A stretch of DNA of 64,000 nt from Mesonia profundi (GTDB lineage Bacteria; Bacteroidota; Bacteroidia; Flavobacteriales; Flavobacteriaceae). A program made the position numbers and the translations under genes. Shown here one piece after another: positions 19,571-64,000 of this stretch (position 1 is the stretch's first letter; each line of letters begins with the position of its first letter). The notes under the pieces are model-generated. The model saw only the letters and a list, made by a program, of their open reading frames with translations, did not search any database and had not been told where the DNA came from. The stretch spans positions 1 through 64,000 of the forward strand of contig NZ_JAVHUL010000006.1 of assembly GCF_031085155.1 (NCBI RefSeq). Reading direction: 5' to 3'.

Positions 19571-19580
19571 TTCCGCGGAA
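19571..19580. repeat. Iterated palindrome TTCCGCGGAA, copy 1
   Basis: This intergenic copy has the context GCTTCCGCGGAAGTC and lies after the thioredoxin gene. It is one of eight copies in the window. Confidence 0.8.
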
Positions 19581-19725
19581 GTCATCACGCAAAGCATCAA
19601 AATTCAACTCATTAATTTGAACAAACTTCTAAAATCAATTATTTGAAGCAAATTTTAAGAGAAATTAATTTTAAGTAAATCTGAGGAACTTAAGTTTTGT
19701 TGATCCCAAACTTTGGTTGTTCATG

Positions 19726-19760
19726 AATTGGCTCCTACTTTATAGAAGGGGCCAATTTTA
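19726..19760 (+). terminator. Probable terminator of the TonB receptor-thioredoxin unit
   Basis: AATTGGCTCC and GGGGCCAATT pair over ten positions with one wobble, and TTTATTT follows. Apart from this and one palindrome copy, I see no gene in bases 19532-19832. Confidence 0.65.
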
Positions 19761-19832
19761 TTTATGATCGGGAAGCTTGAGGTACAAGGATAAAATTGTT
19801 AAATCAACACCTTATCAAATTTAAAATCAGAT

Positions 19833-20591
19833 TTACATTCCTCTTTCTTTCTGAATTTGCTCATAAGCCTCTTGCACCTTTAAGAATTTCTCTTCGGCTC
19901 CTTTTTTATAGGCTTCATCCATTCCTTGTAACTTATCAGGATGGTATTTTTTAGCCATGGTTCTAAACGCTTTTTTCACTTCCGCATCGGTAGCGCTTTT
20001 CTCGATTTCCAAAATTTTATAAGCACTTGTAGCATCGGCAGATTTTACAAACATGGCTTGGATGCTTTCAAAATCACGTCGGTTAATTTGCAAGTAACCC
20101 GCAATTTTCTGCAATTCATATAATTCTGCCGAAGAGATATGACCATCTGCTTGGGTAATTCCGAAGAGAAAATGAAGAATTTGCAAGCGCACCTCGTAAC
20201 TAGTTCGAGAACGCATATAAGCACAAATTCGCTGAGGTTCAATTTGCCTGTTTTTAATCACCTCATTAAAGGTTTTAAAAGTCGCATTGGCTCTTTCCTT
20301 ACCGTAGGACTGTACAAAATAAGAACGCACATAATCCAGTTCCCGCTGATTCACTTTCCCATCGGCTTTAATCACGACAGAGCACAAGGTGAGCAAATTC
20401 AGCTCAAAATCTCCCATAGAAACATTTTGTGCTTTTTGCTGCTGAAAGATATCTTGAAAGCCTCCACCGCTTCCTTTTACCCGCTTTCCTTTTAAGAAAG
20501 CTTCCACAAGACTGCCCAATAAAAAACCAAGAATGGCTCCCGGCCATCGCATATAAACCATTCCTAAAATGGCTCCAATCCACTTAATCAT
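19833..20591 (-). CDS. DjlA-like protein (TerB-like plus J domain)
   Basis: The 252-residue protein starts with a hydrophobic, glycine-rich membrane segment (MIKWIGAILGMVYMRWPGAI). A TerB-like helical domain follows (about 65-165; VVIKADGKVNQRELDYV and GITQADGHISSAEL repeats). A C-terminal J domain has the HPDK motif. This order is that of DjlA-type co-chaperones that stimulate DnaK at the inner membrane. The inner ATG is chosen because a TATATTTG promoter lies 18 bases upstream of it. A longer frame up to 20663 would have to start within or before that promoter. Confidence 0.87.
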   Translation of the reverse strand: MIKWIGAILGMVYMRWPGAILGFLLGSLVEAFLKGKRVKGSGGGFQDIFQQQKAQNVSMGDFELNLLTLCSVVIKADGKVNQRELDYVRSYFVQSYGKERANATFKTFNEVIKNRQIEPQRICAYMRSRTSYEVRLQILHFLFGITQADGHISSAELYELQKIAGYLQINRRDFESIQAMFVKSADATSAYKILEIEKSATDAEVKKAFRTMAKKYHPDKLQGMDEAYKKGAEEKFLKVQEAYEQIQKERGM

Positions 20592-20609
20592 ACTTTTCAC
20601 TTTGAAATG

Positions 20610-20617
20610 CAAATATA
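20610..20617 (-). promoter_or_regulatory. Promoter -7 element for the DjlA-like gene
   Basis: Read leftward this is TATATTTG, a perfect TAnnTTTG, 18 bases before the chosen start codon. Confidence 0.55.
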
Positions 20618-20702
20618 TAAGCTTCTGTGGTTTTATGGCTAAGAATAAAAATAACCTATCCATGTATTCATAAATGAGATATAGGATGTGCGTAGTTTTT
20701 GG

Positions 20703-20710
20703 TATCTTTG
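20703..20710 (+). promoter_or_regulatory. Promoter -7 element for the bacilliredoxin gene
   Basis: TATCTTTG is a perfect TAnnTTTG, 32 bases before the ATG. It lies inside the longer possible reading frame and so supports the shorter start. Confidence 0.6.
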
Positions 20711-20742
20711 GACTTTATAATTTGAACAAAAAAAATCGAAAT

Positions 20743-21153
20743 ATGTATCCAGCAGATTTAGTTAAACCTATGAAAGAAGAATTGACTTCTATAGGTTTTG
20801 AAGAATTACAAAGTGCAGAAGCCGTTGATCAAGCTATTCAACAAGAAGGAACTACCTTAGTGGTTGTGAATTCGGTTTGTGGGTGTGCTGCATCAAATGC
20901 AAGACCAGGAGCAAAAATGTCTTTAGAGAATAGTAAAAAACCATCGCATTTGGCTACGGTATTTGCCGGTGTAGATAAAGAAGCTACAGAAAAAGCACGT
21001 GCTCATATGGTACCTTTTCCTCCAAGTTCGCCTTGTATGGCCTTGTTTAAGGATGGAGAATTAGTGCATATGCTAGAGCGTCATCACATTGAGGGACGAC
21101 CTGCCGAAATGATTGCAGAAAACTTAAAAGACGCTTACAACGAATACTGCTAG
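20743..21153 (+). CDS. BrxA/BrxB family bacilliredoxin (YphP-like)
   Basis: This 136-residue thioredoxin-fold protein carries the CGC active site at residues 46-48 (VVNSVCGCAAS). It also has the family blocks HLATVFAGVDKEATEKAR and MVPFPPSSPCMALFKDGELVHMLERH. Family members remove bacillithiol from oxidised protein thiols. The first Met giving a normal N-terminus (MYPADLVKPM) is chosen; an upstream Met in frame would span the promoter. A strong terminator follows. Confidence 0.92.
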   Translation: MYPADLVKPMKEELTSIGFEELQSAEAVDQAIQQEGTTLVVVNSVCGCAASNARPGAKMSLENSKKPSHLATVFAGVDKEATEKARAHMVPFPPSSPCMALFKDGELVHMLERHHIEGRPAEMIAENLKDAYNEYC

Positions 21154-21176
21154 GCGAAACTAAAAGAGAAAATCTA

Positions 21177-21207
21177 AGGTCGTTCAAAATATGAACGACC
21201 TTTTTTT
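21177..21207 (+). terminator. Terminator of the bacilliredoxin gene
   Basis: AGGTCGTTCA and TGAACGACCT form a perfect 10-bp stem with a 5-base loop, followed by a T tract. Confidence 0.9.
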
Positions 21208-21263
21208 GTTATGCAAGCACAATTGTTTTAAAAAAATAATGAGCATGGCTCTAATTTAAAACT

Positions 21264-21271
21264 TATTTTTG
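21264..21271 (+). promoter_or_regulatory. Promoter -7 element for acyltransferase-desaturase-HD genes
   Basis: TATTTTTG is a perfect TAnnTTTG, 22 bases before the acyltransferase start codon. Confidence 0.6.
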
Positions 21272-21293
21272 CGTTTTAGACGTTGTTTTAGTT

Positions 21294-22031
21294 ATGAATA
21301 CTATTTTATCCTACCCCATTTCTGTGCTCTATTACTTCTGTTTTGGATTGGTGTTATTGATTTTTCATCCCATTCAATGGATTTGCTTCAATGTATTTGG
21401 TTATCAAACCCATAAAAAAAGTGTAGATTACCTCAACTTTTTTTTATTGCGTTGCCTTAATGTTTTAGGAACTAGAATTACGTTTGAGAATGATCAAAAA
21501 TTTAATAAAGACGTTCCGCATATTATTGTTGCCAATCACCAAAGCCCTTATGATATACCGCCTATATCTTGGTATTTAAGAGAAATTCACCCTAAATTTA
21601 TCAGTAAAAAAGAGTTAGGGAAAGGGATTCCTAGTATTTCCTATAACTTAAGCCACGGGGGCTCTATTTTGATTGATCGAAAAAACCCAAGACAATCTTT
21701 ACCCGAAATCAAGAAATTTGCACAATATTTGTTGGATACTAATAGAGCCGCAGTTATTTTTCCGGAAGGCACCCGAACTAAAGACGGAGCACCCAAAGAA
21801 TTTTCTCCTACCGGATTAAAAATGTTGTTTAAATTTTGCCCAGAGGCTGTTGTAGTTCCAGTAACCATAAATAACTCTTGGCAAATTGTGAAAAGAGGTC
21901 AATTTCCCTTAAGTTTGGGAGTACACCTAAAATGCAAAGTTCAACCCACCTTAAAGGTAAGTGATTATTCTACGGAAGATTTGATAAAAAAAGTAGAACA
22001 TATCATCACTAGAGATATTAAAAATTTATAA
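21294..22031 (+). CDS. 1-acyl-sn-glycerol-3-phosphate acyltransferase (PlsC family)
   Basis: The 245-residue inner-membrane enzyme has the PlsC motifs: HX4D as NHQSPYD near residue 80, then the FPEGTRTKDG block near 157 and VVPVTINNSW near 185. The N-terminus is hydrophobic. It should acylate lysophosphatidate in phospholipid synthesis. It lies 12 bases upstream of an acyl-ACP desaturase gene, which suggests joint control of membrane lipid composition. A second PlsC-type gene lies at the right end of the window. Confidence 0.9.
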   Translation: MNTILSYPISVLYYFCFGLVLLIFHPIQWICFNVFGYQTHKKSVDYLNFFLLRCLNVLGTRITFENDQKFNKDVPHIIVANHQSPYDIPPISWYLREIHPKFISKKELGKGIPSISYNLSHGGSILIDRKNPRQSLPEIKKFAQYLLDTNRAAVIFPEGTRTKDGAPKEFSPTGLKMLFKFCPEAVVVPVTINNSWQIVKRGQFPLSLGVHLKCKVQPTLKVSDYSTEDLIKKVEHIITRDIKNL

Positions 22032-22043
22032 ATACAAACTCAC

Positions 22044-23039
22044 ATGGATCCTCAAAAAAATATAAGATTAGAAGTAATGCAGCAATTGGAAAGTAAGGTC
22101 GATGGATTTATTGACCAATTCCTTATTCCTGTAGAAGAGATTTGGCAGCCTACAGATTTTCTGCCTAACTCTCAAGGAGATGGCTTTTATGACGAAGTAA
22201 CCGAAATTAGGGAGCTTGCAAAAGAACTTCCTTATGATTTTTGGGTAGTATTAGTAGGGGATACCATTACCGAAGAAGCTTTGCCTACCTACGAATCTTG
22301 GTTGATGGATGTAGATGGTGTAAGCCAACAAGATGGCGGAACTTCTTGGTCTAGATGGGTACGTTATTGGACGGCCGAAGAGAATCGTCACGGGGATGTG
22401 CTTAATAAATACCTCTACCTTTCGGGAAGAGTAAATATGATTGAAGTAGAGCGTACTACGCAACACTTGATTAATGATGGTTTTGATATTGGAACCGATA
22501 GAGATCCTTATAAAAACTTTGTATACACGAGTTTTCAGGAATTAGCAACCTATGTTTCTCACAACCGCGTAGCCAAATTGGCTCGTAATTATGGAAACAA
22601 ATCTTTGGCAAAAATGTGTAAAATCATTAGCGGAGATGAAATGCGCCACTATAATGCTTACAGTACGTTTGTAGATGAAATCTTTAAAATAGATCCTAGC
22701 AATATGATGATTGCATTTAAGGATATGATGAAGAATAAAATTGTGATGCCTGCGATGTTCTTAAGAGAATCTGGCGATAGTATGGGCGGTGCTTTTGATG
22801 AGTTTTCTAATTGTGCACAACGTATTGGAGTGTATACAGGGAACGATTATATTGATATTATGAAGCGATTGATTGTGCGTTGGGATATCGAAAAATTAAC
22901 CGGTCTTAATGAAGAAGCCGAAAAAGCTAGAGATTTTGTAACCAAGCTTCCTGCAAGAATGGAGCGCATCCAAAGCAGAATAAAAATTTCTGATGAGATT
23001 ACTCACTTTAAATGGGTAAACCCTGCACTTACTAAATAA
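22044..23039 (+). CDS. Soluble acyl-[ACP] desaturase (stearoyl-ACP desaturase type)
   Basis: The 331-residue protein of the diiron desaturase family has the first iron motif as EENRHGDVLNKYL (about residue 113) and the second as GDEMRHYNAY (about residue 202). These EENRHG and DExRH patterns are diagnostic of the soluble plant-type stearoyl-ACP desaturases, which introduce a cis double bond into acyl-ACP using oxygen and reduced ferredoxin. The length is close to the plant and actinobacterial enzymes. It is co-transcribed with the upstream acyltransferase and the downstream HD gene. Confidence 0.92.
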   Translation: MDPQKNIRLEVMQQLESKVDGFIDQFLIPVEEIWQPTDFLPNSQGDGFYDEVTEIRELAKELPYDFWVVLVGDTITEEALPTYESWLMDVDGVSQQDGGTSWSRWVRYWTAEENRHGDVLNKYLYLSGRVNMIEVERTTQHLINDGFDIGTDRDPYKNFVYTSFQELATYVSHNRVAKLARNYGNKSLAKMCKIISGDEMRHYNAYSTFVDEIFKIDPSNMMIAFKDMMKNKIVMPAMFLRESGDSMGGAFDEFSNCAQRIGVYTGNDYIDIMKRLIVRWDIEKLTGLNEEAEKARDFVTKLPARMERIQSRIKISDEITHFKWVNPALTK

Positions 23040-24766: not shown

Positions 24767-24774
24767 AAAAAAGT

Positions 24775-24984: not shown

Positions 24985-25013
24985 AAGCGGTCTTAGATCT
25001 TAGTCGCAGACGA

Positions 25014-25796
25014 CTACTTATTTGGGAAATCTGCTTTTCTTTTTTCTAAAAATGCGCTCGTGCCTTCTTTAAAATCTTCGGTATCGAAGCTTTTTCCAAA
25101 GTTCTCTACCTCTTTATCAAAACCATTTACGCCATCTTCATCATTGGCATTAATCGCCTCAATGGCTCTAGAAATCGCTACCATAGAATTACGCATAATT
25201 TTATGAGCGGTTTTACTAGCAAGCTCCATCAATTCTTCAGCGCTAGTCACATGATTCACCAAACCGTATTGTAAGGCTTGTTTTGCATCAATCATTCCTG
25301 CATTCATAATCATTTCCATCGCTCTTCCCTTACCCACTAATTGTGGCAAACGCTGCGTTCCTCCATAGCCAGGAATCACTCCCAAAGAAGTTTCTGGTAA
25401 TCCCATTTTGGCATTATCACTGGCGATTCTAAAGTGTGCAGCCATGGCTAATTCTAATCCGCCACCCAACGCAAAACCATTAATAGCAGCGATGACTGGT
25501 TTTTTAAAGTTAGCGATACGATCAAAGACTTCCTTTTGCCCTTTTGCAGCAAGGTTTTTCCCTTCTTCTACACTATAATCAGCAAATTCAGAAATATCTG
25601 CCCCTGCAACAAATGCTTTTTCTCCGCTTCCAGTAATGATGATTACTTTTACCTCATCGTCGGTTTCCAATTCCGCGAAAGCGCTATGGATTTCGCCTAA
25701 GGTTTCTCTGTTTAAGGCGTTTAATTTTTTAGGACGGTTAATGCTTAATTTTGCAATTCCGCTTTCTTTTTCTAATAAAATATTTTGGTAACTCAT
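25014..25796 (-). CDS. Enoyl-CoA hydratase/isomerase family protein
   Basis: The 260-residue crotonase-fold enzyme has the oxyanion-hole segments KAFVAGADISEFAD (about residue 60) and AINGFALGGGLELAMAAH (about 105). The two catalytic Glu of short-chain enoyl-CoA hydratases fit LPETSLGVIPGYGGTQRL (about 133-150). It probably hydrates crotonyl-CoA-like substrates in fatty acid or amino acid breakdown. It is the last gene of a leftward run with the histidine kinase and hemJ. The exact substrate is not determined. Confidence 0.9.
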   Translation of the reverse strand: MSYQNILLEKESGIAKLSINRPKKLNALNRETLGEIHSAFAELETDDEVKVIIITGSGEKAFVAGADISEFADYSVEEGKNLAAKGQKEVFDRIANFKKPVIAAINGFALGGGLELAMAAHFRIASDNAKMGLPETSLGVIPGYGGTQRLPQLVGKGRAMEMIMNAGMIDAKQALQYGLVNHVTSAEELMELASKTAHKIMRNSMVAISRAIEAINANDEDGVNGFDKEVENFGKSFDTEDFKEGTSAFLEKRKADFPNK

Positions 25797-27251: not shown

Positions 27252-27252
27252 C

Positions 27253-34171: not shown

Positions 34172-34822
34172 ATGCCAACGATACTCAGCACTAAAAAACT
34201 TGACAAGCATCAAGAGCAATTGATGCTAAATGCAAACATTAGCTTTGTTTCGTATGATGCTATCCGTATTTCTTTTTACAAAGAACTTCTCTTTCCTCAA
34301 AAAGTAGAAAACGCCATCGTTACCAGTAAAAATACTTGGCAAGCCATAAAAGATAAAATTTCTATCAAAAATGCTTTTGTAGTGGGCATCAAAACCACAC
34401 AGCTACTTCAAGAAAGTGGCATAGAGATTATAGAATCTACCGATTATGGAAAAGATTTAGCTCAAAAAATATGCAGTACTCATTCCGCTAAGGAATTTCA
34501 TTTTTTCTGCGGAAAACAACGAAGAGACGAACTGCCTACCCAATTAAAGATAAATAATATTTCCTTTACGGAAACACAAGTTTACGACACCCTAGAAAAT
34601 CACAGAGAATTCTCTCAAGAGTTTGATGGCATCCTGTTTTTTAGTCCCAGTGGCGTAAAAAGTTTTTGTGCGGTCAACGATATAAAATCGGCCACGGCAT
34701 TTTGCATTGGCACCACCACAGCAAAAGAAGCAGAAAAGTATACCAAGAATATCATCATTGCGAACCAACCCACTATCGAGAATGTTATTGTACAAGTGGT
34801 AAAAACCTATAAAAATGATTAA
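34172..34822 (+). CDS. hemD: Uroporphyrinogen-III synthase
   Basis: The 216-residue protein is placed by position in the hem operon and by HemD-like features: SKNTWQAI near residue 50, [14 protein letters not shown] near 150 and [10 protein letters not shown] near 175, the last two being the family's best conserved stretches. It closes hydroxymethylbilane with ring D inversion. The family is poorly conserved, so context matters. The ATG two codons after a possible TTG is chosen. It overlaps hemE by eight bases. Confidence 0.88.
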
Positions 34823-35840
34823 AAACGATTTATTTTTAAGAGCCTTAAAAGGAGAAACTGTAGAACGTCCACCAGTTTGGATGATGAGGCAAGCGGGAAG
34901 ATACCTTCCAGATTTTATGAAGCTCAAAGAGAAGTATGACTTTTTTACACGTTGTAGAACTCCAGAGCTGGCTACCGAAATTACAGTGATGCCTATTCAT
35001 CAAGTAGGAACAGATGCTGCAATTTTATTTTGTGATATTTTGGTAGTTCCGCAAGCGATGGGCGTAGAGATAGAAATGAGACCCGGCGTTGGGCCTTGGG
35101 TTCCCGATCCTATAAGAACGGCTAAGCAAGTAGATGATATCGTTGTTCCCAATGTTTACGAAGAATTGGGTTACGTGTACGAAGCGATTAAAATGACCAA
35201 GCAAGAATTAAACGACGAGGTTCCTTTAATTGGTTTTGCGGGTTCTCCTTGGACGATTTTATGCTATTTAGTGCAAGGTCAAGGTTCTAAGAATTTTGAC
35301 AAAGCCAAAGAGTTTTGTTTTACCAATCCTGTTGCAGCTCATCAGCTTTTGCAAAAAATTACCGACACCACGATTGCTTACCTAAAAGGAAAAGTAGAAG
35401 TAGGTGTAGATGCCGTACAATTGTTTGACTCTTGGGGAGGAATGCTTTCTCCTGTAGATTATCAAGAATTCTCTTGGCAATACATGCAGCAAATAATTGA
35501 TGCTTTAAAAGATGAAACTCCCGTGATTGCTTTTGGAAAAGGCTGTTGGTTTGCACTTAAAGAAATGAGTGAATCTGGAGCTTCGGCTTTAGGGGTAGAC
35601 TGGACGTGCTCTCCAAGAAATGCGCGTTACTTAAGTGGTGGAAACATCACCTTGCAAGGTAATTTTGATCCGTCAAGATTATTTTCTCCACCAAAAGAAA
35701 TCAAAAAGATGGTGCACCAAATGATTAACGAGTTTGGAAAAGACAAATACATTGCAAATTTAGGACACGGGATTTTACCTAATATTCCAGTAGATAATGC
35801 AAAAGCATTTGTGGACGCCGTAAAAGAATGGGAAGAATAA
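34815..35840 (+). CDS. hemE: Uroporphyrinogen decarboxylase
   Basis: The 341-residue enzyme converts uroporphyrinogen III to coproporphyrinogen III. It shows both family signatures, [17 protein letters not shown] near the N-terminus and [15 protein letters not shown] near residue 140. The catalytic Asp region [12 protein letters not shown] (about 75) is also present. It overlaps hemD and shares its stop codon with the next start codon (TAATG). Confidence 0.96.
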
Positions 35841-36328
35841 TGGCAATTTGGGCTCGCATTAAAAATTTAAAGTTCAAGCAACTTTTGGTGCTAGCCCAAC
35901 TTTCTATACAACATCCTACCTCAATTCTACCTACCTATAAAGCGACCAAAAATAGCATGGCGATTTGCGACAGGCGATTCGGAAACGCACATCACAAAGA
36001 CAATGAGACGAATGCTTTTAGGCATGCCTTATGGAATTTTTTAATTGCTGAATATTGCTTCCGCGGAAATGATTCCGTAAAGAAATCTGTAAATTGGGCA
36101 AAAAGAATCACCGACTTACACGAGCGACTTTCTCCCAACGAGCTACTTGCAAAAACGATGGATTTGCACAACAATCAGCAAGGTAGAGTCCTTTTTGAAG
36201 AAGGAATTAAGGAAGAACAAATTGTCTCGGTTCTTCAGCAAAAAATGAAGAAAGCTTTAAAAATTGTATCTCCCGAAGATGCAAAAAAAGCACCTCAACA
36301 ATTGATTTATATTGCTCATGAAAGATAA
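35840..36328 (+). CDS. Unknown His-rich protein inside the hem operon (DUF6973-like)
   Basis: The 162-residue soluble protein has no signal peptide. Two conserved-looking blocks can be read: NETNAFRHALWNFLIA (about residue 56) and MDLHNNQQGRVLFEEG (about 112), with AKRITDLHERL between them. The pattern RHAxWN...HE...MDxHNNxxGR resembles DUF6973-type domains, and its spaced His, Glu and Asp residues suggest a metal site; this is inference. It starts in the hemE stop codon and overlaps hemF by 11 bases, so it is firmly part of the operon. It has no known role in heme synthesis. Confidence 0.75.
   Translation: MAIWARIKNLKFKQLLVLAQLSIQHPTSILPTYKATKNSMAICDRRFGNAHHKDNETNAFRHALWNFLIAEYCFRGNDSVKKSVNWAKRITDLHERLSPNELLAKTMDLHNNQQGRVLFEEGIKEEQIVSVLQQKMKKALKIVSPEDAKKAPQQLIYIAHER
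36059..36068. repeat. Iterated palindrome TTCCGCGGAA, copy 2
   Basis: This copy lies inside the unknown gene of the hem operon, where it is read in a different frame from the other coding copies, as Cys-Phe-Arg-Gly. Confidence 0.8.
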
Positions 36329-38893: not shown

Positions 38894-38911
38894 TCGCTTC
38901 CGCGGAAGCGA
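38894..38911. repeat. Iterated palindrome, longest copy (18 bp)
   Basis: TCGCTTCCGCGGAAGCGA is a perfect 18-bp palindrome in intergenic DNA, containing the TTCCGCGGAA core at 38898-38907. It is the most complete of the eight copies in the window. Confidence 0.9.
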
Positions 38912-42654: not shown

Positions 42655-43797
42655 ATGAAATTTCTTAAAAAACTTCTGCTCAGTCTTGTTTTTATTTTAG
42701 GCTTGGCCGTTCTTTTATTGTACGTTTTTGATGCGGAATATATTTTACGAGGCGTAAGAATCACCTACTTAAAAGGCTATAAAACCGCTTACATCGACGA
42801 TTATACCGAGTTTGATAATCGTACCATTAAAGCTTCAGAAGAAACTCAAGCTTGGCCGCAACACTCCGATTATAATTCCGCGGAAGCGACACAAAAATTA
42901 AAATCTACCAACGAAGAACTGGGCAGCGTTGCATTCCTAATCATTAAAAACGATAGCATTTGGTATGAACATTACGCAGAAGGTTACAGTAAAACTTCGC
43001 ATACCAATTCCTTTTCCATGGCGAAAAGCATCACCTCGGCACTTTTAGGAAAAGCCATCCAAGACGGTTTTATAAAAGGCTTAGATCAACCCGTGGCAGA
43101 TTTCTATCCGCAGTTTGATACTCGCCTTAGCGTAGGCGATTTGTCTTCGATGTCTTCGGGGCTTAATTGGGAAGAAAATTATTACAGTCCGTTTTCTATG
43201 ACTGCTCGGGCTTATTTAGATGACGATATCAAAGACTTGATTTTATCCTTAAAAGTAGAAGAAGAACCGGGTAAAGCGTATAAATACCTTAGCGGAAACA
43301 CGCAGCTTTTATCGATGATCATCGCAAAAGCAAGTAAAAAAACTCTTTCTAAATATTTAAGCGAAAGTTTCTGGAAACCTATGGGAATGCAAACCGATGC
43401 GTTTTGGCAATTGGACGATGATCAAGAAGGAGAAGAAAAAGCCTACTGCTGCATTGCCAGTAACGCACGAGATTTTGCCAAATTTGGAAAACTCTACATG
43501 CAACATGGAAAATGGAACGAAGAAACCTTGTTGCATTCTAGTTTTGTGGCGACTTCTTTAAAACCCCGGTTTAAAGAAAGTCCGGAATATGGTTACGGCT
43601 TTTGGTTAAGCAATCACCTCAACAAAAAAATGTTTGTGATGCGCGGTATTTTGGGCCAATATGTGATTAGCATTCCCGAAGATGATGTAATTGTGGTACG
43701 TTTAGGTCACCAACGCGGAGGATATTCAAACGACCGACCTTTTACAAATGATTTTTACACTTACGTGGAAGAAGCCTATAGCATGCTTCAACTTTAA
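42655..43797 (+). CDS. Class C beta-lactamase-like serine hydrolase
   Basis: The 380-residue protein is anchored or exported by an N-terminal hydrophobic segment (about 6-25). The catalytic SxxK motif is S121-M-A-K124 in SFSMAKSITSALLG, and the second motif is YKYLSGNTQ (Tyr/Ser-x-Asn type) near 218. Such proteins are often peptidases or esterases on the periplasmic side and not true beta-lactamases. An iterated palindrome encodes Asn-Ser-Ala-Glu-Ala at residues 74-78. It lies nine bases before the DUF4153 gene. Confidence 0.88.
   Translation: MKFLKKLLLSLVFILGLAVLLLYVFDAEYILRGVRITYLKGYKTAYIDDYTEFDNRTIKASEETQAWPQHSDYNSAEATQKLKSTNEELGSVAFLIIKNDSIWYEHYAEGYSKTSHTNSFSMAKSITSALLGKAIQDGFIKGLDQPVADFYPQFDTRLSVGDLSSMSSGLNWEENYYSPFSMTARAYLDDDIKDLILSLKVEEEPGKAYKYLSGNTQLLSMIIAKASKKTLSKYLSESFWKPMGMQTDAFWQLDDDQEGEEKAYCCIASNARDFAKFGKLYMQHGKWNEETLLHSSFVATSLKPRFKESPEYGYGFWLSNHLNKKMFVMRGILGQYVISIPEDDVIVVRLGHQRGGYSNDRPFTNDFYTYVEEAYSMLQL
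42876..42885. repeat. Iterated palindrome TTCCGCGGAA, copy 4
   Basis: This copy lies within the serine hydrolase gene and is read as Asn-Ser-Ala-Glu, with GCGA following on the right. Confidence 0.8.
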
Positions 43798-45721: not shown

Positions 45722-46435
45722 ATGCTCAAAAAACTGCAACTCGAACATATTCTATTTTTAGATATTGAAACCGTACCCGAATTTTCTGCTTACGCGGAAT
45801 TGAGCGAAGTTAAAAAGCAACTCTGGGAACACAAATCCCAATACCAACGTAAAGAAGATGTGAGCGCCGAAGATTTTTATGATCGTGCCGGCATTTGGGC
45901 TGAATTTGGTAAAATCGTTTGCATTTCTGTAGGTTATTTTGCGCCTAAAGCAAATCAGCGTAGTTTTAGAATCAAGACGTTCTACGGAGAAGAAAAGCAG
46001 CTCTTACAAGATTTTAAAGACTTATTGAACACCTATTTTAATCAGGCTCAGCACTTGCTTTGCGCTCATAATGGAAAAGAATTTGACTTTCCTTACATCG
46101 CTCGCAGAATGATTATTCACGAGATAGAATTGCCTTCAAAATTAGATTTATTCGGGAAGAAACCTTGGGAAGTTCCTCATCTCGATACGCTCGAGCTTTG
46201 GAAGTTTGGTGATTATAAACATTACACCTCTCTCAAATTACTCACCAACATATTGGGAGTTCCTTCTCCCAAAGATGATATTGACGGCTCCCAAGTGCGG
46301 GATGTTTTTTACAAAGAAAAGGATGTGGAACGCATTGTGAGCTATTGCGAAAAAGATGTCATAGCCATTGCACAAGTGTTTTTGAAATTCCGTCAAGAAA
46401 AACTCTTGAACGAATCTGAAATTACTTCAGTTTAA
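45722..46435 (+). CDS. Predicted 3'-5' exonuclease (PolB-like DEDD family)
   Basis: The 237-residue protein has the exonuclease motifs ExoI LFLDIETVP (Asp 14, Glu 16), ExoII CAHNGKEFDFPYI (about residue 120) and ExoIII YCEKDVIAIAQVF (about 218). This order and spelling fit the DNA_pol_B_exo2 group, stand-alone relatives of the proofreading domain of family B polymerases. The role in DNA repair or RNA processing is unknown. It converges with the candidate small RNA. Confidence 0.88.
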   Translation: MLKKLQLEHILFLDIETVPEFSAYAELSEVKKQLWEHKSQYQRKEDVSAEDFYDRAGIWAEFGKIVCISVGYFAPKANQRSFRIKTFYGEEKQLLQDFKDLLNTYFNQAQHLLCAHNGKEFDFPYIARRMIIHEIELPSKLDLFGKKPWEVPHLDTLELWKFGDYKHYTSLKLLTNILGVPSPKDDIDGSQVRDVFYKEKDVERIVSYCEKDVIAIAQVFLKFRQEKLLNESEITSV

Positions 46436-46893: not shown

Positions 46894-48582
46894 ATGCACC
46901 CACAAGAATTACTTAACGTAAAAGAGCTGGAAGTTAGCTTTACCTCTAATGATTTAGAGAAGGTGGTGCTGCATAATATTTCGTTTCAATTGTATAAAAA
47001 TAAAATTTTAGGCGTCGTGGGAGAGTCTGGCTCTGGAAAATCGATTACGGCCTTGAGTATTTTAAAATTATTGCCTCCCATTGCGAAAATCAGTAAAGGA
47101 GAAATTCATTTTCTAAGAAAAAATTTAGCGCTTACTCCAGAAAAAGAAATGCAAAGCTTACGCGGAAATGAAATCTCCATGATTTTTCAAGAACCCATGA
47201 GCTCTTTGAATCCTTCATTAACATGTGGCTTTCAGGTACAAGAAATTCTTTTAAGGCATACCGGAATCACTTCCGCGGAAGCGAAACAAAAAACCTTAGA
47301 ACTCTTCGAAAAAGTAAGATTACCCCGACCAGAAAGTATCTTCGGATCTTATCCTCATCAAATTAGCGGCGGACAAAAACAGCGGGTAATGATTGCGATG
47401 GCCATCGCTTGCAAACCCAAATTACTCATTGCAGATGAACCGACAACCGCCTTGGATGTAACGGTGCAAAAAGAGATTTTAAGCCTCTTAAAGGAGCTGC
47501 AAAAAGAAACCGGAATGAGTATTTTGTTTATCTCTCACGACTTGGCTTTGGTTTCTGAAATTGCTGACAGAGTCTTAGTCATGTTAAACGGTTCTATTGT
47601 GGAGCAAAACACGACCAAAGAGATTTTTCATCATCCACAAGAGGAATACACCAAGGCTTTATTGGCGTCAAAACCGAATACTAAGGAACGCTTAAAACGT
47701 TTGCCTACGGTAAAAGATTTTATAGATAGAAAAGACCAAAGTGTTTTAGAAACTCTTCAAGAAAGAGAAGATAGACACGAAAAGATTTACAGTCAGCCTG
47801 CATTATTAGAAGTAAAAAATATAGAAAAAGAGTTTATCTCTAAGGCTGGGATTTTTCAAAAACCAAATACCGTAAAAGCGGTGAACGGCGTAAGTTTTAA
47901 AATTTACGAAGGAGAAACTTTGGGCTTGGTGGGAGAATCTGGCTGCGGAAAATCTACGCTAGGAGATGTGATTTTACAATTAACTCCCGCAACGGCTGGG
48001 CAAGTATGGTATAAAGGGAATGACATTACACAGCTTCCTAAAAAAGAACTTAGAAAACTGCGCAAAGAGATTCAGTTGATATTTCAAGATCCTTTTTCTT
48101 CTTTAAATCCGCGTATTCCAGTGGGAAAAGCGATTATGGAGCCTATGGAAGTGCATGGTTTGTATAAAAACAAAAAGGAGCGAAAAGCAAAAACACTCGA
48201 GTTATTAAAACGCGTAGGTTTGGAGGAAGAGCATTTTTATAGATACCCGCATGAATTTAGCGGCGGACAACGCCAACGGATAGGAATTGCACGAACCATT
48301 GCGGTAGAGCCCAAACTCATTATTTGTGACGAATCGGTTTCTGCGTTGGACATTTCGGTGCAGGCGCAAGTGTTAAACTTGTTAAATGAGTTGAAAGAGA
48401 AATTTGGATTTACGTATATTTTCATTTCTCACGATTTGGCAGTAGTAAAATATATGGCCGACCAACTTTTAGTTATGAATAAAGGAGAAATTGTAGAACG
48501 CGGTGATGCCGACAAGGTTTATGCACACCCAGAAAAAGAGTATACGCAAGAATTGATTGATGCGATACCAAAAGGATTATAA
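46894..48582 (+). CDS. Fused peptide ABC transporter ATPase (OppD-OppF type)
   Basis: The 562-residue protein has two complete ATPase domains in one chain. The first has GESGSGKS near residue 42, ISGGQKQR near 158 and LLIADEP near 180. The second has GESGCGKST near 350, FSGGQRQR near 453 and LIICDES near 475. Both end with the oligopeptide-transporter type C-terminal segment. It resembles YejF/GsiA-like fused subunits for peptide import. No permease or binding-protein genes are adjacent. An iterated palindrome encodes Ser-Ala-Glu-Ala in the first domain. Confidence 0.93.
   Translation: MHPQELLNVKELEVSFTSNDLEKVVLHNISFQLYKNKILGVVGESGSGKSITALSILKLLPPIAKISKGEIHFLRKNLALTPEKEMQSLRGNEISMIFQEPMSSLNPSLTCGFQVQEILLRHTGITSAEAKQKTLELFEKVRLPRPESIFGSYPHQISGGQKQRVMIAMAIACKPKLLIADEPTTALDVTVQKEILSLLKELQKETGMSILFISHDLALVSEIADRVLVMLNGSIVEQNTTKEIFHHPQEEYTKALLASKPNTKERLKRLPTVKDFIDRKDQSVLETLQEREDRHEKIYSQPALLEVKNIEKEFISKAGIFQKPNTVKAVNGVSFKIYEGETLGLVGESGCGKSTLGDVILQLTPATAGQVWYKGNDITQLPKKELRKLRKEIQLIFQDPFSSLNPRIPVGKAIMEPMEVHGLYKNKKERKAKTLELLKRVGLEEEHFYRYPHEFSGGQRQRIGIARTIAVEPKLIICDESVSALDISVQAQVLNLLNELKEKFGFTYIFISHDLAVVKYMADQLLVMNKGEIVERGDADKVYAHPEKEYTQELIDAIPKGL
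47271..47280. repeat. Iterated palindrome TTCCGCGGAA, copy 5
   Basis: This copy lies within the fused ABC ATPase gene and is read as Thr-Ser-Ala-Glu-Ala in a surface-type linker (GITSAEAKQ). Confidence 0.8.
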
Positions 48583-50496: not shown

Positions 50497-51150
50497 TTAA
50501 AGTTTCATTTCGGGAATTTCTCCTTCGATTACTAATGTTCCTTCCGTTGCTTTTTGAATTTCTTCAGTACTGACTCCCGGAGCTCTTTCTAATAGTTTGA
50601 ATCCGTTTTCGGTCACCTCTAAAACTGCCAGATTGGTCACAATTCTTGTCACACATCCTACCCCTGTAAGCGGTAACGAACAACGCTTTAATAGTTTAGA
50701 ATCTCCAGCTCTATTGGTATGCATCATCGCAACGATAATGTTTTCCGCGGAAGCGACCAAATCCATCGCGCCTCCCATTCCTTTCACCATTTTCCCGGGG
50801 ATTTTCCAGTTGGCGATATCTCCATTTTCGGCCACTTCCATTGCGCCCAAAATAGTAAGATCAACGTGTTTTCCACGAATCATCCCAAAGCTCATCGCCG
50901 AATCAAAGAAACTAGCGCCTGGTAATGCGGTGATGGTTTGTTTCCCAGCATTGATCAAATCTGGATCTTCTTCTCCTTCAAAAGGAAAAGGCCCCATTCC
51001 TAGAATCCCGTTTTCACTTTGAAACTCTACGTCTATATCGTCATTTACAAAATTGGCCACCAAAGTAGGAATCCCAATTCCTAAGTTGACATAATACCCG
51101 TCTTTTATTTCTTTTGCTATGCGTTGCGCTATTCCGTTTTTATCTAACAT
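50497..51150 (-). CDS. scoB: 3-oxoacid CoA-transferase subunit B
   Basis: The 217-residue beta subunit has the catalytic Glu in VEFQSENGILGMGPFPFEGE (SENG motif, about residue 46). It also has GIGIPTLVANF near the N-terminus. Together with subunit A it transfers CoA from succinyl-CoA to acetoacetate or a similar acid. The inner ATG (MLDKNGIAQR) is chosen because the eight residues before it lie in TTTGAAAAT repeat DNA. It is separated from scoA by an unrelated gene and repeats. Confidence 0.92.
   Translation of the reverse strand: MLDKNGIAQRIAKEIKDGYYVNLGIGIPTLVANFVNDDIDVEFQSENGILGMGPFPFEGEEDPDLINAGKQTITALPGASFFDSAMSFGMIRGKHVDLTILGAMEVAENGDIANWKIPGKMVKGMGGAMDLVASAENIIVAMMHTNRAGDSKLLKRCSLPLTGVGCVTRIVTNLAVLEVTENGFKLLERAPGVSTEEIQKATEGTLVIEGEIPEMKL
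50743..50752. repeat. Iterated palindrome TTCCGCGGAA, copy 6
   Basis: This copy lies within scoB and, on the leftward strand, is read as Ala-Ser-Ala-Glu (DLVASAENIIV). Confidence 0.8.
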
Positions 51151-51200
51151 TTTTTCAATTTGAAAATTATACAATTTAATAATTTGAAAATTATAAAGCT
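51149..51200. repeat. TTTGAAAATTAT repeats between scoB and the S23-type gene
   Basis: Two copies of TTTGAAAATTATA, 32 bases apart with an ACAATTTAATAAT stretch between them, lie at the start of scoB. They match in type the larger array on the other side of the S23-type gene. Confidence 0.55.
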
Positions 51201-59515: not shown

Positions 59516-59536
59516 AAGAATTTTATTCTTCAGATT

Positions 59537-59566
59537 AAAAAATCTCGCTCTTGGCGAGATTTTTTG
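59537..59566 (+). terminator. Terminator of recA
   Basis: AAAAAATCTCGC and GCGAGATTTTTT pair perfectly around a 5-base loop, with a T tract following. Confidence 0.92.
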
Positions 59567-59648
59567 ATTTCATACGCAACCATTCTGATAATTAAACATC
59601 TATAGATAAAACCCTAACTCTGTATTTTACAAAGAGTACTATTATTTT

Positions 59649-60065: not shown

Positions 60066-60071
60066 GGGTTT

Positions 60072-60617
60072 ATGAGTATTGAGAAGCTTATAAAGAATTG
60101 CAAAAAGCAAGATTTAAAGTCGCAAGAGAAGTTATACCATCTTTTCTCGCATAAGCTTTTTGCCGTTTCTTTAAAATACTCTAAAAATTACGCTGAAGCG
60201 GAAGACAATTTACAAGATGCCTTTATCACCATCTTCAAAAAAATGAAGCAGTTCTGTTTTAAAGGTTCTTTTGAAGGATGGATGAAGAGAATTGTAATCA
60301 ATACGGCTCTACAGCGCTACCGTAAACAGCAACATGTATTTGAAATTGTTCATGAAGAACGCATACAACAACCCGAAGTAGAGCTTCAAGAGGAAGAAAT
60401 TCCTTTAAAGTTTTTACTTCAAATTATACAAGAGTTACCAGATCGCTACCGCATGGTTTTTAACCTTTATGCTTTAGACGGTTACTCCCATAAAGAGATT
60501 GCAGAAACCATGAGTATTTCTGTAGGCACCTCCAAATCGAACCTTGCAAGAGCAAGAGGGATCTTAAAACAAAAAATTGAAGAAAGTCAAAAAAAAAATA
60601 ACGTACAGTCTGTTTAA
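60072..60617 (+). CDS. ECF-type RNA polymerase sigma factor
   Basis: The 181-residue protein has region 2 (AEDNLQDAFITIFKKMKQF, about residue 43) and region 4 (LPDRYRMVFNLYALDGYSHKEIAETMSISVGTSKSNLARAR, read here in parts, about 128-168) and nothing between them but a short linker, which is the ECF form. It would direct a small regulon. The next gene encodes a protein with a cytoplasmic N-terminus that may act as its anti-sigma factor. The signal sensed is unknown. Confidence 0.93.
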   Translation: MSIEKLIKNCKKQDLKSQEKLYHLFSHKLFAVSLKYSKNYAEAEDNLQDAFITIFKKMKQFCFKGSFEGWMKRIVINTALQRYRKQQHVFEIVHEERIQQPEVELQEEEIPLKFLLQIIQELPDRYRMVFNLYALDGYSHKEIAETMSISVGTSKSNLARARGILKQKIEESQKKNNVQSV

Positions 60618-60620
60618 GAG

Positions 60621-62153
60621 ATGAGTGAAAAGAAAAATATAGATCGTTTATTCCAAGAGAAGTTCAAAGATTTCGAGGCTTCTCCACATAAGCGGGTATG
60701 GAAAAATATTGAACAAGAATTAAAGAAAGATAAAAAGCGTAGGCTTATTCCTGTCTTATGGTATAAAGTTGCGGGAGTTGCTGCTGCCATTAGCTTACTT
60801 ATCTTTTTAGGAAATTCTTTCTGGCAAGATCAAGAGGTAGAAGTAGTAAATACGTCTCCTAAAAACAACAAGATTTTAGAGAATGAAGCCGAAAATTCCT
60901 TGCAAAATTCTGCGGAAGAAGAAGCGAAAGAAAATATCGTTTTTACTGAGCCAGCCTCTCCAAAAGAAAATGAGAACATTAAGGAAGAAAAAGAGCTAGA
61001 GAATCAGCGACAACTTGTAGAAAACGCTTCTAATTCTTCTTCAGATAAAGAAAAGTCGGGTTTAACAGCAAACCAACAAGATATCGCTTCCGCGGAAGCG
61101 CCAACAAAAAGAAAAGAAACCGAAACCGAAGTCTCTACAAACTCCAAAAACGAAAATGCTCTTAACGCAGACCCGAAATCTAAAAGAGACCCAAGTGAAA
61201 TCGCCGACTTAGACCTTAAGAAAGACAACAATCTCAACAAAGAAATTTTAGAAAAAGAAAATGCTTTGGCACAACGAGAAAAGGAATTCCAAGACTCGAA
61301 TAAAATCGCCGCTACACAGATCAAGAAAGACAGCAGTCTCACCAAAGAAATCTTAGAAGAAGAAAATGCTTTGGCGCAACGCGAAAAAGAACTCAAAGAA
61401 GAAAATACAACCGATAAAAAAGGTACTGAAAGTGAGAAATTTAGTCGCTGGAATATTAGGCCTAATGTTTCTCCTGTATATTATGGAAACCTAGGAGATT
61501 CAGGTAGTCCTATAGATTCTCAGTTTTCTAATAACGATGCTTCAGGCGAAGTGAGTATGGCGTATGGCGTAAATTTTGCTTATGCGATATCAAAAAAAAT
61601 AAAAGTACGTACAGGAGTGAGCAAAGTGCAGCTTAATTATAACACCAATGATGTGGCTTTCACTTCTTCTGTAGATCCGGTAGGCCTTACTAACCTCGAT
61701 GCTAATGCACAGACAAAAAACATACAAGTGGTTTCCCGCCCTTCTCGAGATATTCAAATTAACTCTCTAAGACCTAACATTAATCCATACACTTCTGGGG
61801 CCTTAAAACAACAAATTGGATTTATAGAAGTACCTATAGAGATTGAATATGCGCTATTAGACACGCGTTTTGGAATTCAGATTATTGGAGGTGCCAGTAG
61901 CCTGATTTTAAGTGAAAATGAAGTGGCTATAACTTCTGCAGAAGGAGTTACTAATCTTGGAGAGGCAAACAATCTTAACAAACTAAGTTTTAGCACCAAT
62001 CTGGGAGTAGGCTTTGGTTACGAGATATCAAAAAAATTAGATTTTAATGTAGAACCTACGTTTAAGTATCAACTCAATACCTTCTCAGGTAATACCAATG
62101 GTTTTAAACCTTACTATTTTGGGGTTTACACAGGAATCAACTTTAAGTTTTAG
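60621..62153 (+). CDS. Envelope-spanning protein: cytoplasmic head, coiled coil, outer-membrane barrel
   Basis: The 510-residue protein starts with a cytoplasmic segment of about 45 residues (RVWKNIEQELKKDKKRR) and one membrane helix at about 52-67 (VAGVAAAISLLIFLG). It then has 200 residues of acidic, Lys/Glu/Asn-rich coiled-coil sequence, including a 35-residue repeat (200-234 and 235-263). The last 230 residues read as an outer-membrane barrel ending in YYFGVYTGINFKF. It lies three bases after the sigma gene, so an anti-sigma role is likely by inference. It contains one palindrome copy. Confidence 0.75.
   Translation: MSEKKNIDRLFQEKFKDFEASPHKRVWKNIEQELKKDKKRRLIPVLWYKVAGVAAAISLLIFLGNSFWQDQEVEVVNTSPKNNKILENEAENSLQNSAEEEAKENIVFTEPASPKENENIKEEKELENQRQLVENASNSSSDKEKSGLTANQQDIASAEAPTKRKETETEVSTNSKNENALNADPKSKRDPSEIADLDLKKDNNLNKEILEKENALAQREKEFQDSNKIAATQIKKDSSLTKEILEEENALAQREKELKEENTTDKKGTESEKFSRWNIRPNVSPVYYGNLGDSGSPIDSQFSNNDASGEVSMAYGVNFAYAISKKIKVRTGVSKVQLNYNTNDVAFTSSVDPVGLTNLDANAQTKNIQVVSRPSRDIQINSLRPNINPYTSGALKQQIGFIEVPIEIEYALLDTRFGIQIIGGASSLILSENEVAITSAEGVTNLGEANNLNKLSFSTNLGVGFGYEISKKLDFNVEPTFKYQLNTFSGNTNGFKPYYFGVYTGINFKF
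61088..61097. repeat. Iterated palindrome TTCCGCGGAA, copy 7
   Basis: This copy extends to CGCTTCCGCGGAAGCG (61085-61100) within the envelope-spanning protein gene and is read as Ala-Ser-Ala-Glu-Ala. Confidence 0.85.
61218..61409 (+). repeat. 105-bp in-frame tandem repeat
   Basis: A 105-base unit, 35 codons, occurs once in full and once in part, with mostly silent differences. Both encode NKEILEKENALAQREKE-like sequence (second copy TKEILEEENALAQREKE). The unit length keeps the frame, so copy number can change without breaking the gene. Confidence 0.8.
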
Positions 62154-62184
62154 TTAAGTTAATTGAAGTTGAAGCAATGATGAG

Positions 62185-62216
62185 AAAAGCTCATCCTATA
62201 TAGGATGAGCTTTTTG
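62185..62216. terminator. Bidirectional terminator between convergent genes
   Basis: AAAAGCTCATCCTA and TAGGATGAGCTTTT pair perfectly with a minimal loop and have A and T tracts on the two sides. It serves the barrel protein gene and the convergent acyltransferase gene. Confidence 0.88.
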
Positions 62217-62229
62217 CTTTCTAGTCAAT

Positions 62230-62970
62230 TTAAATGGGTTTAGCTTCCAATTCGGTTAAGATTGCTTCTCTTACCTCTTGCTTTAATTTTGATTTATCCT
62301 CTGGAGCATAAGCTTCTGTAGGGAAAAAAGAAAGAATTTTAGCTCTCATCTTACCTGGACTTCCGCTAAAAAAAGTGTAAGAAAACCGCTTCTTATTATC
62401 ATAAAACACCAAGGGAACAATAGGAATTTGATGTTCTATAGCCAATCTAAAAGCACCATCTTTAAAAGAATCTAAAGCTACTGTTTCATCATCGGGGACT
62501 CCGCCTTCAGGAAAAATGCAAATACTCACCCCCTGGCTTAACCTGCGTTGGGCTTGGTTAAACACCTCTTTTCGGCTGTGCATACTATTGCGGTCTACCA
62601 AGATGCACGTGCGTTTATAGAAAAATCCAAATAAAGGAATTTTTGTCAACTCCTTCTTTCCTACAAAGACAAACGGATTTTTTACCGCGTGTAACATCAT
62701 CATAATATCCATCATAGAAGTATGATTGGCAACAAACATATAACTACGCCCTTTTTGAGGCTTTTCTTCTCTTTCTATCTTAGGCCTAAACCCCATCCCG
62801 TAGATAATGATTCTAGCCCAAAACCTAGCCACAACAAAGAACTGAGGATAAAATTTCTCTTTCGAAGTAAATAATAATAAAAGTGGAAATAAGAGTATGA
62901 TGGGTACTCCCATAAGCACATAAAACCAAATTCGCCAAAGCAAAATCACTGCATTTTTTAAAATCCTCAT
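62230..62970 (-). CDS. 1-acyl-sn-glycerol-3-phosphate acyltransferase (second PlsC family member)
   Basis: The 246-residue membrane enzyme has HX4D as NHTSMMD (about residue 83), FPEGGVPDD (about 155) and IPIVPLVFY (about 185). The N-terminus is hydrophobic (AVILLWRIWFYVLMGVPIILLF). It is about as long as the other acyltransferase in the window, but the FPEG block differs (FPEGGVPDD against FPEGTRTKDG), so the two may prefer different substrates. The promoter lies five bases from the start codon. Confidence 0.9.
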   Translation of the reverse strand: MRILKNAVILLWRIWFYVLMGVPIILLFPLLLLFTSKEKFYPQFFVVARFWARIIIYGMGFRPKIEREEKPQKGRSYMFVANHTSMMDIMMMLHAVKNPFVFVGKKELTKIPLFGFFYKRTCILVDRNSMHSRKEVFNQAQRRLSQGVSICIFPEGGVPDDETVALDSFKDGAFRLAIEHQIPIVPLVFYDNKKRFSYTFFSGSPGKMRAKILSFFPTEAYAPEDKSKLKQEVREAILTELEAKPI

Positions 62971-62974
62971 TTCT

Positions 62975-62982
62975 CAAAAATA
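62975..62982 (-). promoter_or_regulatory. Promoter -7 element for the second acyltransferase gene
   Basis: Read leftward this is TATTTTTG, a perfect TAnnTTTG. It ends four bases before the ATG, so the transcript should be leaderless or nearly so. Confidence 0.5.
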
Positions 62983-63015
62983 TAAAAATGTATTCAGCAA
63001 ACTCTATAAATAAAG

Positions 63016-63023
63016 TACCTTTA
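63016..63023 (+). promoter_or_regulatory. Possible promoter -7 element for trpS
   Basis: TACCTTTA is one base off TAnnTTTG and lies 14 bases before the trpS ATG. Confidence 0.35.
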
Positions 63024-63037
63024 CAAAAAAAAACATT

Positions 63038-64000
63038 ATGTCTAGAATACTAACGGGTGTGCAAAGTACAGGTACACCTCACTTAGGAAACCTTTTAGGG
63101 GCCATTATCCCAGCCATAGAAATGGCAAACGATTCTAACAATGAATCCTATTTGTTTATTGCGAATATGCACACGTTAACTCAAATTAAAGATGCAAAAA
63201 CGCTTAAACACAACACCTATTCGGTAGCGGCAACTTGGCTTGCCTTTGGTCTTGACATTCATAACACCGTATTTTACAGACAAAGCGATGTGCCACAAAC
63301 TACAGAATTAACTTGGTATTTAAGTTGTTTTTTTCCGTACCAACGCCTTACGTTAGCGCATTCTTTTAAAGATAAATCAGATAGGTTAGACGATGTGAAC
63401 GCTGGTTTGTTTAGTTACCCTATGTTGATGGCGGCAGATATTTTATTATATGATGCAGAGCTGGTTCCTGTAGGAAAAGACCAAATGCAACATATTGAGA
63501 TGACACGCGATGTTGCGACTCGTTTTCACGCACAAATGGGAGAAACTTTTGTCTTGCCAGAAGGTAAAATTCAGGAAGGCACCAAGTACATTCCGGGGAC
63601 AGACGGCGGAAAAATGAGTAAGTCTAGAGGGAATTACCTCAACCTTTTTGAAACCGATAAGAAACTGCGCAAGCAGGTGATGAGCATAGAAACCGATAGT
63701 ACTCCTCTTGAGGAACCTAAAAACCCCGACACCTGTAACGTGTTTAATTTATATAAAGTAGTCGCTTCCGCGGAACAAATTAAAGAAATGCGAGCTAATT
63801 ATGAAGGCGGAAATTATGGTTACGGTCACGCCAAGCAAGCTTTATTTGATGTCCTTGTTGAAAAATATGCGGTACAAAGAGAAAAGTACACGTACTATAT
63901 GAATAACCTTCATGAAATAGATGCCGCTTTAGAAACTGGAGCTCAAAAAGCCCAACAAACTGCTAATGAAGTGTTGAATAGAGTGAGAACAAAATTGGGA
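63038..64000 (+). CDS. trpS: Tryptophanyl-tRNA synthetase (cut at the window edge)
   Basis: The 321 visible codons run to the last base of the window without a stop. The class I signature is TGVQSTGTPHLGNLLGA near the N-terminus, with VGKDQMQHIEMTRDVA in the middle and the KMSKS loop as GKMSKSRGNYL (about residue 192). It charges tRNA-Trp. Bacterial TrpS has about 320-330 residues, so only the last few codons are probably missing. A palindrome copy encodes Ala-Ser-Ala-Glu near residue 243. Confidence 0.96.
   Translation, partial: MSRILTGVQSTGTPHLGNLLGAIIPAIEMANDSNNESYLFIANMHTLTQIKDAKTLKHNTYSVAATWLAFGLDIHNTVFYRQSDVPQTTELTWYLSCFFPYQRLTLAHSFKDKSDRLDDVNAGLFSYPMLMAADILLYDAELVPVGKDQMQHIEMTRDVATRFHAQMGETFVLPEGKIQEGTKYIPGTDGGKMSKSRGNYLNLFETDKKLRKQVMSIETDSTPLEEPKNPDTCNVFNLYKVVASAEQIKEMRANYEGGNYGYGHAKQALFDVLVEKYAVQREKYTYYMNNLHEIDAALETGAQKAQQTANEVLNRVRTKLG
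63766..63775. repeat. Iterated palindrome TTCCGCGGAA, copy 8
   Basis: This copy lies within trpS (context TCGCTTCCGCGGAAC) and is read as Ala-Ser-Ala-Glu. Confidence 0.8.

Follow-up and report, generated by a model that had tools for sequence, protein, structure and literature searches.

A highly iterated palindromic word in Mesonia profundi and its relatives in the Flavobacteriaceae

The palindrome in the window

The 10-bp palindrome TTCCGCGGAA recurs in a stretch of 64,000 nucleotides from Mesonia profundi (NCBI RefSeq assembly GCF_031085155.1, contig NZ_JAVHUL010000006.1, positions 1 to 64,000 of the forward strand), which is called the window here. An initial annotation, made from the letters of this stretch, had listed eight copies and assigned six of them to coding sequence. 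All eight coordinates are exact, and the six coding assignments were reproduced. In 100 dinucleotide shuffles of the window, the palindrome occurred 0.07 times on average and once at most. The genome of the window (G000; 3.08 Mb in 76 contigs) was compared with that of a sister species (G002) and with other members of the genus. Open reading frames (ORFs) were called by simple scripts that take the longest frame, and the counts of coding and intergenic sites given below are approximate.

The first copy (19571–19580) is spanned by no called ORF and could not be aligned to the fetched stretches of G002. The copy at 36059–36068 lies in a DUF6973 gene (35828–36328, plus strand), where it is read as Phe-Arg-Gly (FRG). 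It is exact in G002, is replaced by TTTCGCGGAA in G003, and is absent from five other aligned genus members. The perfect 18-bp form, TCGCTTCCGCGGAAGCGA, is located between called ORFs at 38894–38911, and its core, which starts at 38898, is exact in G002. The five remaining copies are all read as Ser-Ala-Glu (SAE). The copy at 42876–42885 belongs to a gene with the Pfam Beta-lactamase domain PF00144 (42655–43797, plus strand); it is exact in G002, and none of the five other genus members that align at this place has the motif. A tandem peptide-type ABC ATPase gene (46894–48582, plus strand) holds the copy at 47271–47280, which is exact in G002 and missing in 13 other aligned genus members. The copy at 50743–50752, in a gene for a CoA-transferase subunit B (50497–51174, minus strand), is also exact in G002, and the sequences of 12 other genus members are one to three substitutions away from the motif. 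The copy at 61088–61097 lies in an outer-membrane beta-barrel-like gene (60621–62153, plus strand) and could not be aligned to the fetched G002 stretches. The last copy (63766–63775), exact in G002, is placed in an open frame that continues past the end of the window and is presumably trpS.

Five one-mismatch variants were also found in the window by sequence match. They are TTCCGCGAAA at 25671–25680, TTCTGCGGAA at 34505–34514 and 60908–60917, and TTACGCGGAA at 45790–45799 and 47158–47167. The last of these is present as the same variant in G002, at the same distance of 113 bp from the full site.

Genome-wide excess, codon choice, and conservation

The palindrome is distributed across the whole genome. 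G000 contains 99 copies of TTCCGCGGAA and 2 copies of the reversed palindrome, which was used as the count control. In 446 kb of G000, 41 copies were counted where a second-order Markov model predicts 0.6, and TTCCGCGGAA has the largest Markov excess among the 10-bp palindromes with at least five copies in this sample. These stretches had been picked for their known sites, and a fair comparison therefore sets the 99 copies of the whole genome against about 4 (0.6 scaled up). The genome-wide count therefore lies far from the Markov expectation, and the copies are not restricted to the window.

Base counts around the G000 sites give a symmetric consensus, TCGC-TTCCGCGGAA-GCGA, or approximately TCGCTTCCGCGGAAGCGA. 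The inner arm bases are C, G, and C in 65, 59, and 53 of 82 cases, respectively (both strands of 41 sites). The tolerant positions within the 10-mer are 3 and 4, the outer arm bases vary too, and the enriched one-mismatch forms in G000 are TTTCGCGGAA, TTACGCGGAA, and TTCTGCGGAA. The degenerate form TTYCGCGRAA occurs 189 times in this genome; subtraction of the symmetric copies (99 and 8) leaves 82 asymmetric ones. The earlier statement that most copies in the window extend toward the 18-bp form holds as a tendency, with one perfect copy in eight and one to four mismatches in the other seven.

Other palindromes were observed in excess in two relatives. In G002, CCGTTAACGG has 10 copies in 770 kb (stretches L118, L122, L123, L125, L126, L130, L239, L244, L246, and L251), and the first 400 kb contain 6 copies where 0.1 are expected. 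It is often seen as TTCCGTTAACGGAA, with the same TTCCG half-sites set four bases wider apart. In stretches L186 and L193–L198 of G010, GCAATTGC was counted 13 times (2.5 expected) and TATCGATA 18 times (4.2 expected).

The reading frames of the sites indicate at which level selection acts. Among the 41 sampled G000 sites, 29 are read as SAE, 2 as FRG, and 10 lie outside called ORFs, while 11.5% of the DNA is non-coding. SAE is spelled TCC-GCG-GAA in 28 of 53 cases in G000 (0.55 expected from codon use) and in 31 of 77 cases in G002 (0.32 expected), figures that are inflated because the stretches were picked around sites. The same spelling was found in 2 of 15 cases in stretches of G008, G010, and G014 (0.1 expected) and in none of 16 cases in the stretches sampled from eight motif-poor members of the genus. 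Picking around known sites applies to the G000 stretches and to most of the first G002 set, whose site densities and SAE counts are raised in the same way; the second G002 set was laid out mostly regardless of sites. Codons are chosen in favour of the word, and therefore selection acts on DNA. This rules out a protein-level SAE motif and bears out the view of the initial annotation that protein selection alone does not explain the copies. SAE is the frame tolerated by the proteins, and the selected entity is the DNA word; given the genome-wide count, this conclusion holds in spite of the inflated figures.

A role in the transcript, as an RNA hairpin or terminator, is very unlikely. The arms can pair around the central CGCG, and about half of the sites in three genomes described below (G022, G034, and G543) are intergenic. 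However, most sites are within genes in G000 (31 of 41), G002 (39 of 42), and G213 (67 of 76, with 9 intergenic). Moreover, coding variants that pair by G-U or are mismatched in the mRNA number 6 and 4 in G000 and 5 and 5 in G002, without a clear bias. Coding sites were seen to lean toward the front of genes, with quintiles of 40, 41, 29, 27, and 25 of 162 sites from crudely called starts (G000, G002, G022, G034, and G213).

The sites are conserved in place between the two sister species. G002 contains 102 copies of TTCCGCGGAA, and its alignable DNA is ~79% identical to that of G000. Over 126.8 kb of aligned DNA, G002 matches 13 of 15 G000 sites exactly, and G000 likewise matches 13 of 15 G002 sites; shared sites are possibly over-sampled in these counts, because many stretches were chosen around sites. 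The background identity between the two genomes is 7.3% for GC-matched 10-mers and 8.9% for 10-mers with two CpG. When the window was compared with a contiguous part of G002 (430–510 kb), all six alignable sites were shared. At these places, the other members of the genus have either unrelated sequence or near-matches.

Three of the four sites that are not shared between G000 and G002 differ by substitutions only, and one, a G002 site (L132), lies in an indel region. At four window sites, other genus members were aligned 36 times, and 33 of these alignments are gapless in the stretch shown. A mobile palindromic insertion element that spread through genes would agree with the L132 site and with the copy at 47271, which is placed in a part of the protein so variable that substitution can hardly be told from replacement. 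However, the gapless alignments and the substitution-only differences led us to reject it largely, and its probability is very low.

Dialects, spacing, and carriage on mobile DNA

The word is unevenly distributed among relatives. In 16 genomes of the genus, the copies of TTCCGCGGAA number 102, 99, 57, 52, 38, 21, 20, and 17, and the eight others have six or fewer (range 0–102). We refer to TTCCGCGGAA as the C-type word. A T-type dialect, which differs from it by one symmetric base change, occurs in other Flavobacteriaceae at about 590–870 sites per genome; its core is TTTCGCGAAA, within the 14-mer GCTTYCGCGRAAGC and the 16-mer CGCTTTCGCGAAAGCG. G010 also carries 44 copies of TTTCGCGAAA, against 7 for the control. 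Four high-copy T-type genomes were found (G022, G034, G213, and G543). Nonlabens ulvanivorans (G022) has 586 copies of TTYCGCGRAA, mostly TTTCGCGAAA among those listed, and eight other genomes surveyed beside it, three Psychroflexus included, have 1–15. In a tree of one ABC gene, the genus of the window is interspersed with Psychroflexus species, and it is perhaps Psychroflexus-like within the Flavobacteriaceae. Among 199 family genomes, G034 (617) and G213 (642) are the two with more than 600 copies, and about 26 exceed the reversed control. Among 395 genomes of the order, the 14-mer GCTTYCGCGRAAGC occurs 873 times in G543 and 596 times in G034; 53 genomes have any copy, mostly few, and the reversed control gives 0–2.

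The 14-mer is nearly invariant, being present in 30 of 31 copies of the 10-mer in G022 and in 23 of 23 in G034. Strict 14-mers and one-mismatch copies stand at 30:6 in G022, 23:1 in G034, and 15:2 in G543. T-type genomes use all three reading frames, as illustrated by G213 (32, 20, and 15 sites), which is a single contig. The dialect (TTCCGCGGAA or TTTCGCGAAA) varies between lineages, a lineage can be without the network, and the genome of the window has a sparse, less strict form.

Sites are evenly spaced in the stretches examined of three of the four high-copy genomes. The mean intervals are about 5.4, 5.3, and 3.7 kb in G022 (160 kb), G034 (120 kb), and G543 (60 kb), respectively. The coefficients of variation (CV) are 0.50, 0.38, and 0.32, compared with 0.96, 0.91, and 1.0 for random placement matched for the number of coding and intergenic sites; none of 3000 draws was as low in any of the three genomes. 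The G034 stretches were picked before any site positions were known, while some positions in G022 and G543 had been listed beforehand. None of the 64 intervals in the three genomes is shorter than 1300 bp, where 17 were expected, with a cut-off that was set after the shortest interval (1312 bp, in G543) had been seen. With 1500 bp, none of the 48 intervals of G022 and G034 falls below it. One listed G022 interval beyond the fetched stretches measures 1288 bp.

On contig 1 of G002, the GC skew and the gene direction flip from minus to plus at ~480–520 kb, the counterpart of the region just to the right of the window, and this place appears origin-like; dnaA of G002 is on a different contig. Clustering of sites around this flip was considered, as 17 of 24 listed contig-1 sites lie at 440–650 kb with the skew flip near 500 kb. 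We did not build on it, because the interval was picked after it had been seen and G213 is without an evident trend.

The T-type word is also carried by phages. The 16-mer CGCTTTCGCGAAAGCG was found in 41 stretches of viral contigs, and 11 viral contigs carry at least two copies, with up to six in 37 kb. Recurring intervals make it evident that some of the multi-copy contigs represent identical or related phages. The reversed control of this 16-mer occurs in 14 viral stretches and never twice per contig. Of ten proteins from four multi-copy contigs, seven matched portal, terminase, head, tape-measure, or integrase proteins and three had no match; the integrase match is restricted to one of the four contigs. 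The regular multi-kilobase intervals and the phage contigs with up to six copies might suggest a Chi-like signal, which would control recombination or degradation, protect or repair self DNA, and have been adopted by phages. However, a strict palindrome gives no direction, whereas Chi-type signals are asymmetric and oriented. We consider a signal of this kind unlikely.

A conjugative element was observed in G000 (G000:C5:66805-75487, stretch L344), in a domain search made in this genome only. It encodes a type IV secretion system coupling protein, DUF5712 and DUF932 proteins, and a 601-aa ParB-domain protein, and TraM is encoded on the adjoining stretch L343. Three TTTCGCGAAA sites and one variant are located on the element, no more than about 10 kb from the ParB gene. 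A matching stretch of G003 (G003:C19:165900-172435, L345) has four sites within about 10 kb of its ParB gene. The TTTCGCGAAA sites of the element are perhaps its own partition or transfer sites. Defence candidates lie on or near the G000 element (L343:6038-11691 and L344:1345-4323), namely a KAP-NTPase and a HerA-like helicase beside a SIR2-like protein. The same G000:C5 region encodes a fused Eco57I-type restriction-methylase, a possible defence gene that adjoins the conjugation genes. In the window itself, positions 6338–9340 encode a 1000-aa protein carrying a type IX secretion system (T9SS) type A sorting domain.

A putative reader of the word and comparison with known systems

A symmetric word that keeps its place and, in high-copy genomes, shows density-dependent spacing is the signature of a protein needing a site every few kilobases, or of an uptake-like drive. 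Judging from the sequences, we assign a probability of about 0.5 to the former reading, in which the word would be the binding site of a dimeric, sequence-specific protein that marks its own chromosome at intervals. A DNA-binding protein with two-fold symmetry would recognize the word, and each site would act for the few kilobases that surround it. A second site nearby would then gain little, and even spacing would result. The sites would be created mainly by substitution and held by weak selection at each place. We infer that a protein reads the word, that it is a dimer, and that it organizes, segregates, or identifies chromosomal DNA. The initial annotation had offered a methylase site, a protein-binding site, and a chromosome-organizing element as possible functions. 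The latter two are favoured by the symmetry, the conservation, and the even spacing in relatives, while the first is poorly supported.

Several observations weigh against a marking protein. No binding protein was identified for the word. Of the 16 genus genomes, 14 have one ParB, G002 among them, and two (G000 and the motif-poor G003) have a second; the second G000 copy lies with the conjugation genes; therefore, no Noc-like paralogue tracks the word. The spacing is not regular in G000 and G002 (CV 0.78 in each; P 0.41 and 0.24), and the CV in G213 is 0.83 for TTTCGCGAAA (P 0.25) and 0.70 for TTYCGCGRAA (P 0.006). Intergenic sites account for 17 of 31 in G022, 12 of 23 in G034, and 9 of 17 in G543, and the word may have a different role in these genomes. 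Viral contigs show no enrichment of the C-type 16-mer, which occurs in 6 stretches, each time singly, against 14 for the T-type reversed control. In 22 sampled 20-kb stretches of G213, no trend toward an origin or terminus was evident, as judged without a formal test. Finally, the even spacing and the strictness would equally suit an uptake- or repair-driven process.

The main rival is accordingly a signal of the DNA-uptake type. The word would raise the uptake or recombination of conspecific DNA, and transformation would spread perfect copies by molecular drive. The even spacing in three high-copy genomes, the scarcity of one-mismatch copies beside strict 14-mers (G022, G034, and G543), the lineage dialects, and the intergenic excess in G022 and G034 are all compatible with such a drive. 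However, known uptake sequences are not palindromes according to the accessible part of one study (PMC1939737), the irregular spacing in G000 and G002 does not fit, and the papers found in a literature search gave no sign of a Bacteroidetes uptake sequence. The palindromic form of the word and its presence on phage contigs lead us to prefer reading by a protein, and we regard the uptake signal as rather doubtful.

The initial annotation also drew a parallel with the highly iterated palindrome HIP1 of cyanobacteria. In Elhai's model, such a word is tied to a DNA methyltransferase and made by methylation-directed repair. The present word is likewise a CG-rich palindrome inside genes, as described for HIP1 in the accessible part of PMC4390886. 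PF00145 methylases are present in G002, G022, G034, and G543, and the Eco57I-type methylase is found in G000. However, PF00145 is absent from G000, G007, G008, G009, G014, and G213, the last of which has 642 copies of TTYCGCGRAA, and PF01555 was unmatched in G000, G002, G004, G009, and G010; other methylase families were not searched genome-wide. Both families are over the cut-off in four of eight motif-poor genus members. For these families, no correlation with the word was seen (PF00145 and PF01555 in 16 genus genomes, and PF00145 in the four high-copy genomes). A cognate methyltransferase for G000, which had been suggested as a check, was thus not found in PF00145 or PF01555, although the Eco57I-type enzyme is present beside the conjugation genes. 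Because of this enzyme and the restriction of the genome-wide searches to these two families, the exclusion is only partial, and we consider a methylase-driven origin improbable.

If a dimeric protein does mark the chromosome, a broader picture may be drawn tentatively, and it is less probable than the binding site itself. Flavobacteriaceae would possess an undescribed chromosome-marking system, in which a 16-bp palindromic address recurs every ~4–5 kb, a putative dimeric reader recognizes it, dialects differ by one symmetric base, and phages copy the word and thereby pass off their DNA as that of the host. No description of the word in Bacteroidota was found in the accessible parts of the open-access literature, with subscription papers and preprints outside the scope. 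If the even spacing reflects a protein needing one site per few kilobases, the word would be a testable code for chromosome organization or self-recognition in an ecologically important family. It apparently does without a methylase of the type that the HIP1 model presupposes, and the question of why highly iterated palindromes exist can be asked in a second, independent lineage.

Three groups of known sequences can be compared with the word. Noc-binding sites, SlmA-binding sites, and matS are palindromic chromosome-organizing sites with tens to hundreds of copies, mostly in genes. The present word resembles them in being palindromic, in having many copies, and in being mostly intragenic. Unlike them, it is tracked by no ParB paralogue, has no evident terminus bias in G213, and reaches about 590–870 sites in the T-type genomes. 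The DNA uptake sequences (DUS) of Neisseriaceae and the uptake signal sequences (USS) of Pasteurellaceae are also strict, short words with many copies, for which even spacing has been reported. DUS have lineage dialects, which is a further likeness. However, DUS and USS are non-palindromic, whereas the core and the consensus of the present word are symmetric and the word is carried by phage contigs. According to PMC1939737, Karlin et al. regarded the significantly even spacing of the uptake sequences in Haemophilus as indicating a role, although PMC1939737 itself judges these sequences to be less even than compaction sites should be.

The third group comprises HIP1 and the alternate HIPs, which, in the accessible part of PMC4390886, are tied together by the methylase link. 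Because this link was not found in the families tested, we do not file the word as a HIP in Elhai's sense. It differs from HIP1 in its greater length (14–18 bp), in the lack of a consistent PF00145 or PF01555 methylase, in the even spacing in stretches of some genomes, and in belonging to another phylum. The other parts of the parallel are retained, since the word is a genome-wide repeat, is mostly in coding sequence in G000, G002, and G213, is selected at the DNA level, and forms dialects between lineages. By analogy, the word appears to work most like HIP1 and the alternate HIPs.

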